Origin: Elusimicrobiota bacterium
GTDB taxonomy: Bacteria; Elusimicrobiota; Endomicrobiia; CG1-02-37-114; JAHJSO01
NCBI GenBank assembly: GCA_018830385.1
Contig: JAHJSO010000170.1
Span: 1 to 10,809 of the forward strand
Length of the DNA: 10,809 nt
Direction of reading: 5' to 3'
Shown here: one piece after another, positions 284 through 4,917 of the stretch
Numbering within the stretch: the stretch's first letter is position 1
Layout of the letters: each line of letters opens with the position of its first letter
Made by a program: the position numbers and the translations under genes
Notes under the pieces: model-generated
Database searches by the model: none
Seen by the model: only the letters and a program-made list of their open reading frames with translations
Told to the model about the DNA's origin: nothing

Positions 284-574
284 ATGACGGTAAAAGTTTT
301 TCTTAATGGCAAAGAAGAGGAACTGGACGGCATAGGAAGCATCCTTGAACTTCTCAATAAAAAGAAAATTCGCCCGGAGGTTGTGACGATAGAAGTGAAT
401 GATAAAATTATACCGCGGGGCGAATACGGGAAGACAGTTCTGAAAAACGGCGACCGCATAGAAATGGTTTTTTTTATGGGCGGTGGTCGACGTGCGAGAA
501 ATAACGAGCACATGTCTGTCCGACGGGCGCGAGATGTGAGCGCCCACATACGGATCCGCAAGGGGGCTATATGA
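284..574 (+). CDS. ThiS-like sulfur carrier protein with an atypical C-terminal tail
   Basis: The 96-residue product begins with a small ubiquitin-like fold of the ThiS/MoaD family: MTVKVFLNGKEEEL, then a helix, then VTIEVNDKIIPRGEY and KNGDRIEMVFFMGGG. In this family the chain normally ends at the Gly-Gly, which is adenylated and converted to a thiocarboxylate. Here Gly-Gly-Gly (residues 66-68) is followed by 28 more residues rich in Arg, encoded by DNA that forms two related hairpins (see separate entry). Such a tail would have to be cut off before the carrier could be charged, or it blocks function. The stop overlaps the next start as ATGA (571-574), so translation is probably coupled to the cysteine synthase. 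A role in thiamine synthesis is possible by family, but neighbours point to cysteine/sulfide assimilation. Confidence 0.85.
   Translation: MTVKVFLNGKEEELDGIGSILELLNKKKIRPEVVTIEVNDKIIPRGEYGKTVLKNGDRIEMVFFMGGGRRARNNEHMSVRRARDVSAHIRIRKGAI
488..558. repeat. Two related palindromic units within the 3' end of the ThiS-like gene
   Basis: Two units about 33 bp apart share the pattern CGACGxGCG...AGA.AT...GAGCxC. The first can fold with GTGC (492-495) against GCAC (508-511). The second folds with GGGCGC (525-530) against GCGCCC (540-545) around a 9-nt loop. The block starts directly after the Gly codons where a ThiS gene would normally stop and ends just before the ribosome binding site of the next gene. 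It looks like a small dispersed palindromic element read through in frame. Boundaries are approximate and no clear target duplication was found. Confidence 0.5.
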
Positions 575-1530
575 GTTTGTCCGACGACAACAGAGAAAGG
601 AAATCCGGCATCAGGATAGCCGGGAACGTTCTGGAGTTGTTTTTTAATACGCCGGTTGTCCGTCTGAACCGCATCCCGGATGAGGGCGCTGAGATTTATG
701 CAAAATTAGAGGCGTTCTCGCCGGGGGGCAGCGTAAAAGACAGGGTCGCCCTCAGCATGATTCAGGAAGGCGAAAAGGCGGGCATGCTTAAACCGGGGTC
801 AATCATCGTTGAGCCGACGAGCGGGAACACGGGCATAGGTTTCGCCATCGTCTGCGCGGTTAAGGGTTACAGGTGCGTACTCACAATGCCCGAATCAATG
901 AGTTTAGAAAGGATTTACATACTGAAATCATTGGGCGCAGAGGTCATCCTTACCCCGGCTACTGAAGGTATGGCTGGAGCAGTAAAAAAAGCAGAAGAGA
1001 TTGTCAAAAAAAACAAAAACGCCTACATGCCGCAGCAGTTTAAAAACCCGGCAAACCCCGACATCCACAGGGAAACTACCGCCCTGGAAATAATTGAATG
1101 CATGGGCGACGGGTTTGACGCGTTTGTCGCAGGCGTGGGTACCGGCGGAACGATTACGGGCGTCGGGGAAGTCCTTAAGAAAAAATATCCGTCAATAAAG
1201 ATAGTCGCCGTTGAGCCGGAAAGTTCGGCAGTGCTGTCGGGTGGCCCGGCTGGCCCTCATAAAATACAGGGCATAGGAGCAGGATTTATCCCTGACATAT
1301 TAAACCGTGAGATAATTGACCGTATTATTACCGTGAGGGATGAAGACGCATACAGGACAGCGCAACTCCTGGCGAAGAAGGAAGGGATTTTTTGCGGTAT
1401 ATCGTCGGGCGCTGCGTGTTTCGCATCAATAAAACTGGCGAAAGAATTGGGCAGGGGGAAAAAGATTGTAGTTATATTCCCCGATACGGGCGAGAGATAT
1501 TTCAGTATACAGCAGTATTTTGAAATCTAG
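571..1530 (+). CDS. cysK: Cysteine synthase, CysK family (PLP-dependent)
   Basis: The 319-residue protein is full length for O-acetylserine sulfhydrylase-type enzymes, which make cysteine from an activated serine and sulfide. Visible hallmarks are the PLP lysine in SPGGSVKDR (K56), the substrate loop EPTSGNTGIG (81-90), the glycine-rich phosphate loop GVGTGGTITG (188-197), KIQGIGAGFIP, the CGISSGA segment that holds the PLP ring nitrogen, and the C-terminal FPDTGERY. It has an N-terminal extension of about 18 residues before the NVLELFFNTPVVRL start of the fold. The ATG overlaps the stop of the ThiS-like gene, with AAGGGGG at 560-566 as its ribosome binding site. Association with sulfur carriers and an E1-like enzyme suggests it may take sulfur from a carrier thiocarboxylate, as mycobacterial CysM does from CysO; whether the acceptor is O-acetylserine or O-phosphoserine cannot be read here. 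Confidence 0.93.
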   Translation: MSLSDDNRERKSGIRIAGNVLELFFNTPVVRLNRIPDEGAEIYAKLEAFSPGGSVKDRVALSMIQEGEKAGMLKPGSIIVEPTSGNTGIGFAIVCAVKGYRCVLTMPESMSLERIYILKSLGAEVILTPATEGMAGAVKKAEEIVKKNKNAYMPQQFKNPANPDIHRETTALEIIECMGDGFDAFVAGVGTGGTITGVGEVLKKKYPSIKIVAVEPESSAVLSGGPAGPHKIQGIGAGFIPDILNREIIDRIITVRDEDAYRTAQLLAKKEGIFCGISSGAACFASIKLAKELGRGKKIVVIFPDTGERYFSIQQYFEI

Positions 1531-1551
1531 TAATACCGGAGGATTCAGGAT

Positions 1552-2781
1552 ATGGGTTACGTCAGGGGACTAAAATGCAGGGAGTGCGAACGCAAATACC
1601 CGGCAGAACCGCTATACGTGTGTGAGTATTGTTTCGGCCCGCTTGAGGTTGATTATGATTATGAGGGGATAAAAAATGTTTTGTCCAGAGACGTCCTCAC
1701 CTCAAGGGCCGAAAACATCTGGCGTTACAGGGAACTTCTGCCTATTGACGGCAACCCGATAGTAGGGCTGCAATCCGGCTGGACCCCGCTTATCAGGGCG
1801 GACAACCTGGCGGGAGAGCTTGGTGTAAAGGAGTTATACGTAAAGGATGACTCTGTCTGTCACCCGACGCTTTCCTTCAAGGACAGGGTTGTCTCGGTGG
1901 CGATATCAAAGGCGGCCGAGTTCGGTTTTGACACGGTTGCGTGTGCATCAACGGGGAATCTGGCAAACTCTGTTTCGGCCCAGGCAGCAAAAGCAAAAAT
2001 GAAGTGTTTTGTTTTTATTCCTGCCGACCTTGAATCGGGAAAGATTATCGCTGCAATTATTTATGGCCCGAATGTGGTTGCGGTTGAGGGAAATTATGAC
2101 GAGGTGAACCGTCTCTGCACGGAAATCACAAACAAACACAAATGGGCTTTCGTCAACATAAACATCCGTCCGTATTACGCCGAGGGCTCAAAGACCTACA
2201 TATATGAAATCATTGAGCAACTGGGCTGGAAGGTGCCGCAGCACATAGTAGTCCCCGTTGCAGGCGGCTCGCTGATTTCCAAAATCCGTAAGGGAATGGT
2301 TGAATTTCAGAAGTTAGGGCTGATTAAGAATATTGACACGAAAATATACGCTGCGCAGGGGCAGGGCTGCGCACCTGTCGTTACGGCGATTAAACAGAAA
2401 AGTGAAATAATAAAACCCGTAAAACCGAGAACGATAGCAAAATCGCTGGCGATAGGCAACCCTGCCGACGGTTATTATGCTTACAAAACAGTCACTGACA
2501 GCGGCGGGTGGGCGGATGAAGCCACCGACGACGAAATAGTTGAAGGGATTAAACTGCTCGCCCGCACGGAGGGGATATTTACCGAGACCGCCGGCGGCGT
2601 GACCGTAGCCGTAGCAAAGAAATTAATTGAACAGGGAGTAATACCGAAAGACGAATCAATCGTTATATGCATAACAGGTAACGGGCTAAAAACTCAGGAG
2701 GCCCTTGCGGGCAGGATAAGACAGCCGGTAAAGATAAAACCTAACATTGATTCGTTTGAAAAAATAGTCCACGAAAAATAA
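1552..2781 (+). CDS. thrC: Threonine synthase (PLP-dependent)
   Basis: The 409-residue protein matches threonine synthases, which convert O-phosphohomoserine to threonine. It has an N-terminal zinc-ribbon-like module with C9-x2-C12 and C24-x2-C27, then GWTPL (76-80), the PLP lysine K110 in HPTLSFKDR, CASTGNLANS, the phosphate-binding VAGGSL, a NPADGYYAY segment, FTETAGGVT, and a C-terminal ITGNGLKTQEAL. The ATG follows a strong GGAGG (1538-1542). It lies 21 nt after the cysteine synthase stop. Its presence inside a sulfur-carrier operon is notable: O-phosphohomoserine is also a possible acceptor for sulfide in homocysteine synthesis, so a role beside threonine formation is conceivable, but the sequence reads as an ordinary threonine synthase. 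Confidence 0.93.
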   Translation: MGYVRGLKCRECERKYPAEPLYVCEYCFGPLEVDYDYEGIKNVLSRDVLTSRAENIWRYRELLPIDGNPIVGLQSGWTPLIRADNLAGELGVKELYVKDDSVCHPTLSFKDRVVSVAISKAAEFGFDTVACASTGNLANSVSAQAAKAKMKCFVFIPADLESGKIIAAIIYGPNVVAVEGNYDEVNRLCTEITNKHKWAFVNINIRPYYAEGSKTYIYEIIEQLGWKVPQHIVVPVAGGSLISKIRKGMVEFQKLGLIKNIDTKIYAAQGQGCAPVVTAIKQKSEIIKPVKPRTIAKSLAIGNPADGYYAYKTVTDSGGWADEATDDEIVEGIKLLARTEGIFTETAGGVTVAVAKKLIEQGVIPKDESIVICITGNGLKTQEALAGRIRQPVKIKPNIDSFEKIVHEK

Positions 2782-2803
2782 AAAGCGCAACGGAGGAGAA
2801 AAA

Positions 2804-3886
2804 ATGAATATTAAAGTAAGAATCCCGACGCCGTTACAGAAAATTACAAAGAATCAGACAGATATTGTTTCTGACGGACAGGATGTCAGGGAACTTATAG
2901 AAAACCTTGACAGGGAATATCCGGGGCTGAAGGAGAGAGTCTGCGACGAGAAGGGCGATATCAGGCGGTTCATAAACATATTCGTCAACGGACAGGACAT
3001 CAGGTTTCTGGAAGGGGACGGGACAAAACTTAAAGAAGGGGACGAGGTTTCCGTAATTCCGGCAATTGCTGGCGGTGTTGATTTAAGTGAAGATCAAATA
3101 GAAAGGTATTCAAGACAGATAATACTCCCTGAAATCGGAGGTAGGGGCCAGGAAAAACTGTTGAAGGCGAAGGCGCTTGTTATCGGATGCGGCGGGCTCG
3201 GCTCACCTGCGGCATATTACCTGGCCGGCGCTGGCGTGGGTACTATCGGGCTGGTTGACAGCGACAGGGTTGAATTAAACAACCTGCAGAGACAGATACT
3301 CCATTTCACGCGGGATGTGGGACAACCGAAAGTTGAATCTGCAAAGGAAAAACTGTCAGCACTGAACCCGGACGTGCAGGTTAACACGTATCCGCTTCGT
3401 CTCACATCAAAAAATATTCTTGACATTATTGCGCAATACGACATTATCATTGATGGTAGCGACAACTTCCCGACCCGTTATCTTGTGAACGATGCGTGTG
3501 TTTTTTCAAACAAACCTCTTGTCCATGCGGGTATATTGAAGTTTGACGGCCAGGCGACCACAATAATCCCGAACGAAGGGCCCTGTTACAGGTGCCTGTT
3601 CCCGGAGCCACCGCCGCCGGGCATGGTGCCGTCTTGCCAGGAGGCGGGAATCATCGGCGTGGTGGCGGGCATGTTGGGTATCGTCCAGGCGACTGAGGCG
3701 CTGAAATTTATACTTGGCGCAGGGGAGCTCCTTGTCGGTAAACTCCTTATATGTAACGCCCTGGAAATGAACTTCAGGAAACTTAACTTCCAGCGGAATC
3801 CCGGCTGCGTCGTCTGCGGGGATAAGCCGTCAATAAAGGAGTTGACTGATTACGAACAGTTCTGTGGCGTCAGGCCGCAAGGGTAA
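2804..3886 (+). CDS. CysO/MoaD-like sulfur carrier fused to a MoeB/ThiF-type adenylyltransferase
   Basis: The 360-residue protein has two domains. Residues 1-91 form a ubiquitin-like carrier ending in FVNGQDIRFLEGDGTKL..VIPAIAGG, very like CysO. Gly-Gly (90-91) is followed at once by the E1-like domain. That domain has the start LSEDQIERYSRQIILPEIG, the ATP loop GCGGLGS (128-134), D152, R163 in NNLQRQ, DGSDNFPTRY (217-226), zinc Cys pairs C261/C264 and C335/C338, and C278 in VPSCQEAG at the ThiF/MoeB catalytic-Cys position. No rhodanese domain follows. It should adenylate the Gly-Gly tail of a carrier, perhaps the ThiS-like protein encoded upstream. Its own carrier domain has an internal Gly-Gly and would need proteolysis to be charged. 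GGAGGAG (2792-2798) precedes the ATG. Confidence 0.92.
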   Translation: MNIKVRIPTPLQKITKNQTDIVSDGQDVRELIENLDREYPGLKERVCDEKGDIRRFINIFVNGQDIRFLEGDGTKLKEGDEVSVIPAIAGGVDLSEDQIERYSRQIILPEIGGRGQEKLLKAKALVIGCGGLGSPAAYYLAGAGVGTIGLVDSDRVELNNLQRQILHFTRDVGQPKVESAKEKLSALNPDVQVNTYPLRLTSKNILDIIAQYDIIIDGSDNFPTRYLVNDACVFSNKPLVHAGILKFDGQATTIIPNEGPCYRCLFPEPPPPGMVPSCQEAGIIGVVAGMLGIVQATEALKFILGAGELLVGKLLICNALEMNFRKLNFQRNPGCVVCGDKPSIKELTDYEQFCGVRPQG

Positions 3887-3890
3887 CTAA

Positions 3891-4049
3891 TGCAGTGTCC
3901 CATAAATCTCTTGACATTTGAATACCCATTGGATTGTCATTGCGAGGGACGAAGTCCCGAAGCAATCCCCTTGTCTTATGAGATTGCTTCGTCGCTGACG
4001 CTCCTCGCAATGACAACCATGATTGTAGAGATCTGTTAGGGACGCTACA
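3891..4049. mobile_element. 159-bp MITE-like element flanked by CTAA target duplication
   Basis: The ends are imperfect terminal inverted repeats: TGCAGTGTCCCATAA.ATCTCT at 3891-3911, and on the opposite strand TGTAGCGTCCCTAACAGATCTCT from 4049 inward. Both ends are bordered by CTAA (3887-3890 and 4050-4053), consistent with a 4-bp target-site duplication. There is no coding capacity. An inner palindrome of the GTCATTGCGAGG type fills the centre. Deleting the element and one CTAA leaves the MoeB stop, then CTAAGGAGACAAT, then the ATG of the NIL gene, which is a normal operon junction with the ribosome binding site AAGGAG. This strongly supports a secondary insertion of a non-autonomous element. 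The transposase family that moves it is unknown. Confidence 0.8.
3934..4015. repeat. Inner long palindrome with GTCATTGCGAGG arms
   Basis: The left arm (3936-3967) starts GTCATTGCGAGGGACGAAG and ends GAAGCAATC. The right arm (3982-4013) starts GATTGCTTCG and ends CTCCTCGCAATGAC, so the two arms pair over most of their length around a 14-nt centre. The left arm also holds a small hairpin GGGAC-GAA-GTCCC (3946-3958). Dispersed repeats with this GTCATTGCGAGG/GAAGCAATC signature occur in many unrelated bacterial genomes. If transcribed in the operon, it would form a long stable RNA hairpin between the MoeB fusion and the NIL gene. Confidence 0.85.
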
Positions 4050-4062
4050 CTAAGGAGACAAT

Positions 4063-4302
4063 ATGGCGAAAAAAATCGTTAAACTTATTTTTCCGCAGCG
4101 TCTGATTAAAGAACCGCTGACTTTTAAAATGGCAAAAAAATTTAACGTTATTCCGAACATCCGTCGGGCAAGGGTAACTGATACAATCGGAGAATTAGTC
4201 CTTGAACTGGACGGCGAAGAAAAGAACGTAGCCATGGGTATTGACTATCTTGTGAAAGCAGGGGTGGACGTCAGGCCTGTTGAAGGCGATATCCTGGATT
4301 AA
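4063..4302 (+). CDS. Stand-alone NIL-domain protein
   Basis: The 79-residue protein consists of a single NIL domain, the module found at the C-terminus of the methionine ABC transporter ATPase MetN and in some ferredoxin-like proteins of sulfur metabolism. The match is VKLIFPQRLIKEPLTFKMAKKFNVIPNI near the start, with a second half ELVLELDGEEKNVAMGIDYL and AGVDVRPVE. In MetN this domain binds methionine. A free copy in a cysteine/threonine/sulfur-carrier operon could sense or bind a sulfur amino acid, or assist sulfur insertion; the function is not established. The ATG has AAGGAG at 4052-4057, which abuts the right end of the MITE-like element. Before that insertion the gene would have followed the MoeB-fusion stop by 13 nt. 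Confidence 0.88.
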   Translation: MAKKIVKLIFPQRLIKEPLTFKMAKKFNVIPNIRRARVTDTIGELVLELDGEEKNVAMGIDYLVKAGVDVRPVEGDILD

Positions 4303-4311
4303 CATATTGAT

Positions 4312-4917
4312 ATGATATCAGAAGATGAAGATATAAAATGTATGCTTGCGTTCAGAGCGGGGGGTGATATCTGCTTTGAAAAAATACTTAAGAAATATGA
4401 AAAGCCATTGATTAACTTCGTCTATCGTTTTATAGGCAATAAGACAGAAGCAGAAGATATAGCACAAGAAGTTTTTTTGAGGGTCTATAAATCAAAGAAT
4501 AAATATGAACCCCGGGCAAAATTTTCTACCTGGTTATATAGAATTGCCGCTAATATATGTATTGATTATAGAAGGAAACCTGCTAATAAACTCCATGCAA
4601 GCACGGATTCGCTGGATAAACCGATTGTTAGAGACGAAAATGAAATAACGAGTGAAATCGCGGACGCTTCTAAAAACCTCCAGGAGAACATACTGGAACA
4701 AAAACTGATAAATGAGACCATTATGTCTGCTTTGATTTTACTGCCTACGAACCAGCGTATTGCTTTAACTCTTTGTGTGTATGAAAATAAATCGTATCGG
4801 GAAATATCGGAAATTCTCGGCTGTTCCGTTTCCTCGGTTGAATCGCTTCTATTTCGTTCCCGCCAGACCTTAAGAAAAAACTGGCTGTTCTATAAAAAAA
4901 ATGATAAAAGCGTGTGA
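4312..4917 (+). CDS. ECF-type RNA polymerase sigma factor (RpoE-like)
   Basis: The 201-residue protein has both ECF domains. Region 2 spans about residues 19-89, with EAEDIAQEVFLRVYK (46-60) and the -10-recognising FSTWLYRIAANICIDYRR (71-88). Region 4 starts near residue 139, with LPTNQRIALTL and the helix-turn-helix YREISEILGCSVSSVESLLFRSRQTLRK. The linker between the domains is long, polar and acidic (about 90-135). The ATG was chosen because DEDIKCMLAFRAGG lines up with usual ECF N-termini; no good Shine-Dalgarno precedes it, and it starts 9 nt after the NIL stop. Composition drops sharply in GC from this gene, so it starts a different block. It is presumably held by the membrane anti-sigma factor encoded downstream and released by an envelope signal. 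Confidence 0.93.
   Translation: MISEDEDIKCMLAFRAGGDICFEKILKKYEKPLINFVYRFIGNKTEAEDIAQEVFLRVYKSKNKYEPRAKFSTWLYRIAANICIDYRRKPANKLHASTDSLDKPIVRDENEITSEIADASKNLQENILEQKLINETIMSALILLPTNQRIALTLCVYENKSYREISEILGCSVSSVESLLFRSRQTLRKNWLFYKKNDKSV

Follow-up and report, generated by a model that had tools for sequence, protein, structure and literature searches.

A probable IS630-type miniature element with a REP-like core between the ThiS-ThiF and NIL genes of an Elusimicrobiota bacterium

Introduction

Previous work on RUP, a 107-bp MITE of Streptococcus pneumoniae, showed that its ends match those of IS630-Spn1, and it was proposed that the IS moves RUP into TA-containing targets (PMC2229807; this and the following papers are cited from excerpts). 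IS630, studied in Shigella sonnei, has a preference for TA within CTAG (Tenzen and Ohtsubo 1991, as cited in PMC2170065), and elements of the IS630 family are reported to duplicate TA, as ISY100 does in 34 of 39 products (PMC2170065).

The CGTC-tagged REPs (CGTC-1 to 4, including dRS3 and the Rickettsia repeats RPE-4 and RPE-6) are said to lack a dedicated transposase, and the possibility that transposases of other kinds move them was raised as a question by Di Nocera et al. (2013; PMC3733652). The traits given for these REPs in the same excerpts are a terminal CGTC, often TGTC, a stem of 8-9 bp that starts with an A-T pair, a loop of 4-5 nt and the tail CCA (PMC3733652). A MITE that contains a REP has been described in Coxiella burnetii, where QMITE2, of 150-190 bp, holds a GTAG-type REP and is flanked by variable duplications of 7-11 nt (PMC5896051).

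Results

An element between the ThiS-ThiF and NIL genes

The window, i.e., the whole stretch of 10,809 nucleotides that was analysed, contains a same-strand run of genes at 284-4302 which ORFs and Pfam matches identify as a ThiS-like gene, two genes for PLP-dependent enzymes, a ThiS-ThiF fusion and a NIL-domain gene. We take this run to resemble a sulfur-carrier amino-acid pathway. Directly 3' of the NIL gene, at 4312-4917, lies a sigma-70-family gene of ECF-like make-up (Sigma70_r2, Sigma70_r4_2). Between the ThiS-ThiF stop and the NIL Shine-Dalgarno is a 159-bp segment (3891-4049) bordered by identical CTAA, with the following features.

2804..3886, + strand: ThiS-ThiF fusion gene ('MoeB fusion'), an ORF with Pfam ThiF at 298 bits and ThiS at 61 bits, ending just 5' of the element
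3887..3890, no strand: CTAA, left target copy, read from the sequence (G009 has a single CTAA at the matching place)
3891..3934, + strand: left arm (long end), 44 nt, made up of about 30 nt of IS630-type terminal repeat and a further 14 nt, from its match to IS left ends
3911..3916, + strand: TTGACA, also present in the IS left end upstream of the transposase gene (alignment with the IS ends, L115)
3935..4015, no strand: core, 81 bp, two TGTC-tagged REP-like palindromes in inverted orientation (TGTCATTGCGAG ... CTCGCAATGACA) with heads at 3935-3946 (+) and 4004-4015 (-)
4016..4049, - strand: right arm (short end), 34 nt, a worn IS630-type terminal repeat, from its match to IS right ends
4050..4053, no strand: CTAA, right target copy, read from the sequence
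4054..4057, + strand: GGAG, Shine-Dalgarno-like, of the NIL gene, intact in the sequence
4063..4302, + strand: NIL-domain gene, 79 aa, 3' of the element (Pfam NIL 52.7 bits, cut-off 24)

An earlier sequence-only reading of this DNA had proposed a MITE-like element with a CTAA duplication, whose removal restores an operon junction. Both parts of that proposal hold. CTAA is present at each edge and same-armed copies occur elsewhere; the right CTAA is followed by GGAGACAAT and then by the NIL start, and taking out the 159 bp with one CTAA leaves TAA-CTAA-GGAGACAAT-ATG, with the Shine-Dalgarno kept. The longest mechanical ORFs lying mostly inside the element, of 49 aa (3890-4039, +) and 48 aa (3870-4016, -), are far below the 354 aa of the transposase described below, and a transposase gene is absent from the 159 bp.

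Judged by the window sequence on its own, the inverted ends are a modest match. They agree at 9 of 12 tip bases and at 18 of 30 ungapped positions, and their local score of 10 was equalled by 16 of 2000 shuffles of one end. Given such ends, and given that CTAA is a short word that here stands beside a Shine-Dalgarno, the spacer might be a REP pair alone, with outer repeats and CTAA that arose by chance. This explanation is refuted by the further copies, in which the same arms, joints and flanking 4-mers recur at many independent places, and an IS with the same ends exists; we regard its probability as negligible.

Copies in the host genome

The further copies sought in the parent genome were present. 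The host assembly (1.23 Mb) contains at least 65 matches to the full segment, a lower bound since 40 of 62 candidates were scored. At least four other places have both arms around the palindrome: C168:6407-6578, C28:3656-3827 (with the outermost tip altered), C39:586-752 and C53:2359-2510. Three more have one arm (C206, C65 and C25), and left-arm fragments lie beside a palindrome at C189, C40 and C33, again as a lower bound from the full-segment search. The five full copies and three one-armed copies are dispersed in differing flanking sequence, and the end pattern finds 11 ends in the genome, all at seven of the eight armed places. Because of this repetition, the inverted ends are taken to be beyond chance, though modest in the window itself.

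The four other full copies are 78-83% identical to the window copy, so the element family is not young in this genome. The insertion had been called recent, and that description finds no support here, given the divergence of these copies, the worn right end and the lack of such a transposase in the host assembly. In a Goldiibacteriota genome (G096) there are at least 41 matches to its own 155-bp composite, 31 of them 93-97% identical; 35 of the 41 reach position 1 or 155, the arm tip, and many lie at contig ends. Here 40 of 85 candidates were scored, so that these counts are lower bounds too.

The partner insertion sequence

Two closely similar end patterns were searched, with up to 3 mismatches, in 95 genomes of the class and 340 genomes of the phylum. 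Matches were found in 6 of the 95 and in 58 of the 340, while an end pattern read backward as a control gave 2 hits among the matches listed. At G001:C33:4945-6076 two ends lie 1132 bp apart around a single ORF of 354 aa, the product of which scores 258.6 bits against the NCBIfam model NF033545 for IS630 family transposases (cut-off 100) and matches Pfam DDE_3. Relatives of this transposase at E <= 1e-20 occur in 14 of the 340 genomes. By a comparison of the lists by eye, all 14 are among the 58 end-positive genomes, a co-occurrence (14/14) that is partly due to the IS carrying its own ends. Eight of the 17 transposase matches in the 340 genomes lie in complete IS copies (1131-1133 bp) whose two ends can both be recognised, although two of these copies have 6 mismatches at one end; for the other nine, no pair of ends was obtained. 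CTAG flanks six of the eight IS copies on both sides, one copy has CCAG/CTAG, and one is cut by a contig edge. This 1.13-kb IS of the IS630 family provides the IS with matching ends that the earlier reading had suggested looking for. IS3/IS481 or IS5, expected as partner from the tips and CTAA, was rejected, the IS481 match being 46 bits against a cut-off of 224.

Aligned without gaps, the left arm of the window element is identical to the IS left end at 32 of 40 nt in G336 and at 28 of 40 in G001, and it retains the TTGACA box of the G001 end. The right arm is identical to the IS right end at 22 of 32 nt in G336 (ungapped) and at 21 of 32 in G001, and has 5 mismatches to the end pattern. Since its inverted ends correspond to those of an IS630-family IS, the element classes as an IS630-derived MITE. 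No related transposase was found in the host assembly, which is 79% complete and in 255 contigs, and the nearest is that of G001, from the same order. A partner transposase in the same genome is not essential for a MITE, and it may have been lost or be unassembled.

Target-site duplication and the empty site

Flanks were tabulated for elements from many genomes, and 73 of the 81 elements listed were usable; the eight dropped were one at a contig edge and seven with uncertain tips or flanks, host copy C28 being among the eight. CTAG stood on both sides of 39 elements, identical 4-mers other than CTAG flanked seven, and the two sides differed in 27. The seven identical pairs were CTAA twice (including the window), CTAC twice, TTAG twice and ATAG once. 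When the right flanks were shuffled in 20,000 trials, identical non-CTAG pairs averaged 0.77 with a maximum of 5, and none of the trials reached 7. Seven perfect 4-mers of this sort favour a 4-bp duplication for this element group. A strict 2-bp duplication of TA may still apply, and CTAG/CTAA (3 elements) and TTAG/CTAA (1 element) fit it, yet it appears not to fit all copies. The CTAA on both sides of the window element is what would be expected of a duplicated TA target, for which CTAG would be preferred. CCAG on the left with CTAG on the right was seen for five elements in the flank table.

The 4-bp duplications anticipated at the other host copies were found in part: C39 has TTAG on both sides, but C53 has CTGT/CTAT, and no clean duplication was seen at C168 or C28. 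Elsewhere, two elements of G096 (C115:4188-4323 and 4328-4482, L177) stand head to tail with only CTAG between them, and in G210 (C8:280-309 and 314-343) two stand back to back with only 4 bases, CTAG, between. From these pairs, the CTAG at an element's edge itself serves as a target.

Among 39 related genomes, the ThiS-ThiF protein is 72-75% identical in four of family f5 (G009, G012, G006 and G014). In G009 the sequence from this gene to NIL reads TAA-AA-CTAA-AGGAGG, with no insert and a single CTAA; G012 has CTAC at the matching place, and in G014 the spacer ahead of NIL is longer and unrelated. In G006 the NIL gene is not directly downstream of ThiS-ThiF, another ORF being next. The element is thus missing in all three relatives with a readable ThiS-ThiF/NIL pair. 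An empty site as predicted by the earlier reading is seen in one relative, G009, though not in G012 or G014, and the single CTAA of G009 could be chance, because G009 is in another family and its ThiS-ThiF is only 75% identical.

As DNA, the element with a little flank (3880-4070) has a predicted fold with a z of -5.9 against shuffles; as RNA, the stretch 3860-4080 folds at -78.8 kcal/mol, with a z of -5.2. So stable an RNA fold between same-strand genes raises the possibility that the element is kept as a regulatory hairpin, a stabiliser or attenuator, between ThiS-ThiF and NIL. We consider this unlikely, given that the element stretch has no terminator-like site and 3700-4300 no promoter-like hit, that G009, G012 and G014 have this gene pair without the element, and that the other copies lie in different flanking sequence. 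The TTGACA at 3911-3916 has no TATAAT-like partner, and the element has no match in Rfam at gathering thresholds. An effect on expression may occur without being the reason for the element's presence.

The REP-like core as a module

Composites, i.e., arms around the GTCATTGCGAG palindrome, were found in seven genomes: the host (G000), G037, and the MAGs Elusimicrobia UBA5214, Goldiibacteriota DeMMO3_7, FCPU426 CSMAG_2803, Firestonebacteria CSMAG_1793 and Bacillota GPS1B09. A scan of named genomes gave the short-end/palindrome joint at 31 loci, which lie in these five; since all five are MAGs, binning errors could misplace some of the copies. The scan queried the exact joint, which makes the 33-nt distance a given of the search for the five MAGs, while their other ends are free of bias. 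G000, G037, G010, G273 and G274 are free of joint bias, their elements having come from whole-element or end-pattern searches or adjoining another gene. In the same arms a second REP-like core, GTCATTCCCGC or GTCACCCCCGC, was found in G010 (1), G273 (5), G274 (1) and G099 (1, with one end at an odd distance).

With the IS left aside there are 80 elements, and 40 of these have a tagged core. Among the rest, elements of about 262-296 bp have a different long palindromic core, and some have further palindromes (by eye). Same-ended elements in the range of about 262-270 bp, with another long palindromic core, were seen in G037, G034, G094, G223, G256 and others (L091, L096, L100, L165, L274 and L282).

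Among the 64 ends with the first core, 19 have the start of the tag GTCA 29 nt in from the tip, 13 have it at 44-46 nt and 32 at 32-35 nt, each of the 32 elements having one 32-35 nt end and one other end. The 16 ends with the second core divide into eight with the tag at 29 nt, seven at 32 nt and one at 56 nt. In 39 of the 40 tagged elements the tags thus stand at set distances, one tip being 29 or 44-46 nt away and the opposite tip 32-35 nt, and the exception is the element with an end at 56 nt. The window copy has 45 and 35 nt; among the short ends of G000 and G037, six of seven are at 33 nt, the window's 35 being the seventh.

The cores were also compared with 12 arm-less dimers of the host. 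Two of these share 95-96% identity with the window core, which reaches no more than 83% with any of the four remaining composite cores. The core of C39 is 87% identical to a free dimer versus 78% to a composite core, that of C53 is a near tie, and for C168 and C28 the core of another composite is a better match than the free dimers are. Three composites contain a dimer type with spacer CCCCTTGTCTTATGAG (up to 2 mismatches), which also stands at several free places in the host.

Free palindromes and the Y1 transposase

The host genome has 100 palindrome heads. Arms were sought at 39 loci, which gave about 43 distinct islands, a count in which a few one-head islands may be chance. Only 8 of these islands carry an arm, and 35 are armless; arm scores were 18-42 for the eight, and the maximum of 1660 shuffle controls was 14. 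Because so few islands are armed, IS630-type transposition is one vehicle and not the general mobiliser, and by this count the free palindromes must have moved otherwise or lost their arms. The idea that the free palindromes are worn composites was rejected, as the flanks of most islands score at shuffle level, though C189, C40 and C33 retain part of a left arm. The earlier suggestion that these ends join a widespread palindrome to a mobilisation mechanism is accordingly narrowed: the composite is real and present in MAGs of several phyla, but most of the host islands examined have no arm and similar dimers also occur outside arms. At C90, C185, C69, C239 and C128 of the host, GTCATTGCGAG heads stand in tandem arrays with a spacing of 35 or 42 bp.

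The sole Y1 transposase match of the host assembly is at G000:C158:2213-3163. Its ORF is enclosed by inverted copies of ATGGGGTCAGGTCTTGACATTTGACA, its own terminal repeats, which are unlike the palindrome (by eye). The nearest one-mismatch palindrome head lies about 2 kb upstream; the next ORF downstream contains a two-mismatch word, some 0.3 kb away. No RAYT-borne REP (REPtron), in which the Y1 gene is flanked by the same REP, was found in the host assembly. As this one Y1 match is not enclosed by the palindrome, a RAYT was set aside as the mover of the inner palindrome, although a RAYT acting at a distance could have moved it. In G034, a 264-bp element that shares these ends but has another core (C155:1200-1463) lies 17 bases from a Y1 transposase match (PF01797) at 1481-1819.

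An alternative is that the palindrome itself is what moves: through machinery of its own (e.g., a RAYT) it would have entered a plain IS630 MITE, or a target palindrome, at a second step, and would ride as a passenger of the outer ends. The armless majority of the host islands examined and the same-spacer dimers inside and outside arms would agree with this, and REP dimers within larger palindromes have been described in other bacteria (Di Nocera et al. 2013, PMC3733652, in the excerpts). Against it, set tag-to-tip distances with two core types are tidier than random insertion would give, though set distances are also expected from descent of one composite, and the host's one Y1 match has different inverted repeats of its own. 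We regard this account as quite possible, while giving it somewhat less than an even chance.

Discussion

We consider it highly probable that 3891-4049 is a MITE of the IS630/Tc1-mariner type, with arms from a 1.13-kb IS and a REP-dimer interior, that was moved in trans into CTAA, the core being a module. Under this reading the arms would be the terminal repeats of the IS, with no transposase gene between them. A transposase acting in trans would have brought the element to CTAA just upstream of the NIL Shine-Dalgarno, and the insertion would have duplicated the CTAA target and left the operon readable. The same or a different REP dimer could fill the space between the arms, and similar dimers would also occur armless. 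The arms, the partner IS, the copies, the duplication, the single relative with an empty site and the sharing of the module can be read from the sequences; that this transposase moves these elements, and the route of the core into the arms, we infer.

The resemblance to RUP and IS630-Spn1 is that the ends of a MITE match an IS630-family IS. No REP core is described for RUP in the excerpts of PMC2229807, whereas elements of the window type have a REP-dimer core, with several core types in one end family. With IS630 and ISY100 the element shares the family of the partner transposase (IS630/Tc1-mariner) and the preference for CTAG. Where ISY100 duplicates TA, 7 of 73 elements of the window type have identical 4-mers other than CTAG on both sides. 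In several traits the inner palindrome is like the CGTC-tagged REPs that Di Nocera et al. (2013) described: the window core has TGTC at both outer ends, in an inverted pair, and its units appear by eye to start the stem with an A-T pair (ATTGC ... GCAAT). Each unit of this core has, again by eye, an outer stem of 5 bp with another hairpin inside it, and the likeness is drawn from described traits and not from a consensus. QMITE2 is also a MITE with a REP inside, but it has a GTAG REP, duplications of variable length and, in the excerpts of PMC5896051, no named partner transposase, while the window element has a TGTC tag and CTAA.

Among the literature matches listed, with subscription papers mostly outside the search, no IS630 element with a REP core was met, and no relevant paper was found for the GTCATTGCGAG-type palindrome or end sequence. 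The parts are known, as IS630 MITEs and as a REP inside a MITE; what appears to be new, no paper having been found among those matches, is that they are combined, with an identified IS as partner, two kinds of core and joints at almost constant distances. A broader proposal is that IS630 terminal repeats are a reusable shuttle, swapping different CGTC-type REP pairs exactly at their tags, offering palindromes presumed to lack a transposase a transposition route across several phyla and duplicating NTAN instead of TA. We put this forward tentatively and consider it doubtful.

In sum, the composite elements bear on the published question of what moves CGTC-tagged REPs. That question becomes a simple assay, i.e., whether an IS630-type transposase moves a mini-element with a REP core. 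Further, the elements supply insertions with recognisable duplications for studying the entry of dispersed palindromes into operons.
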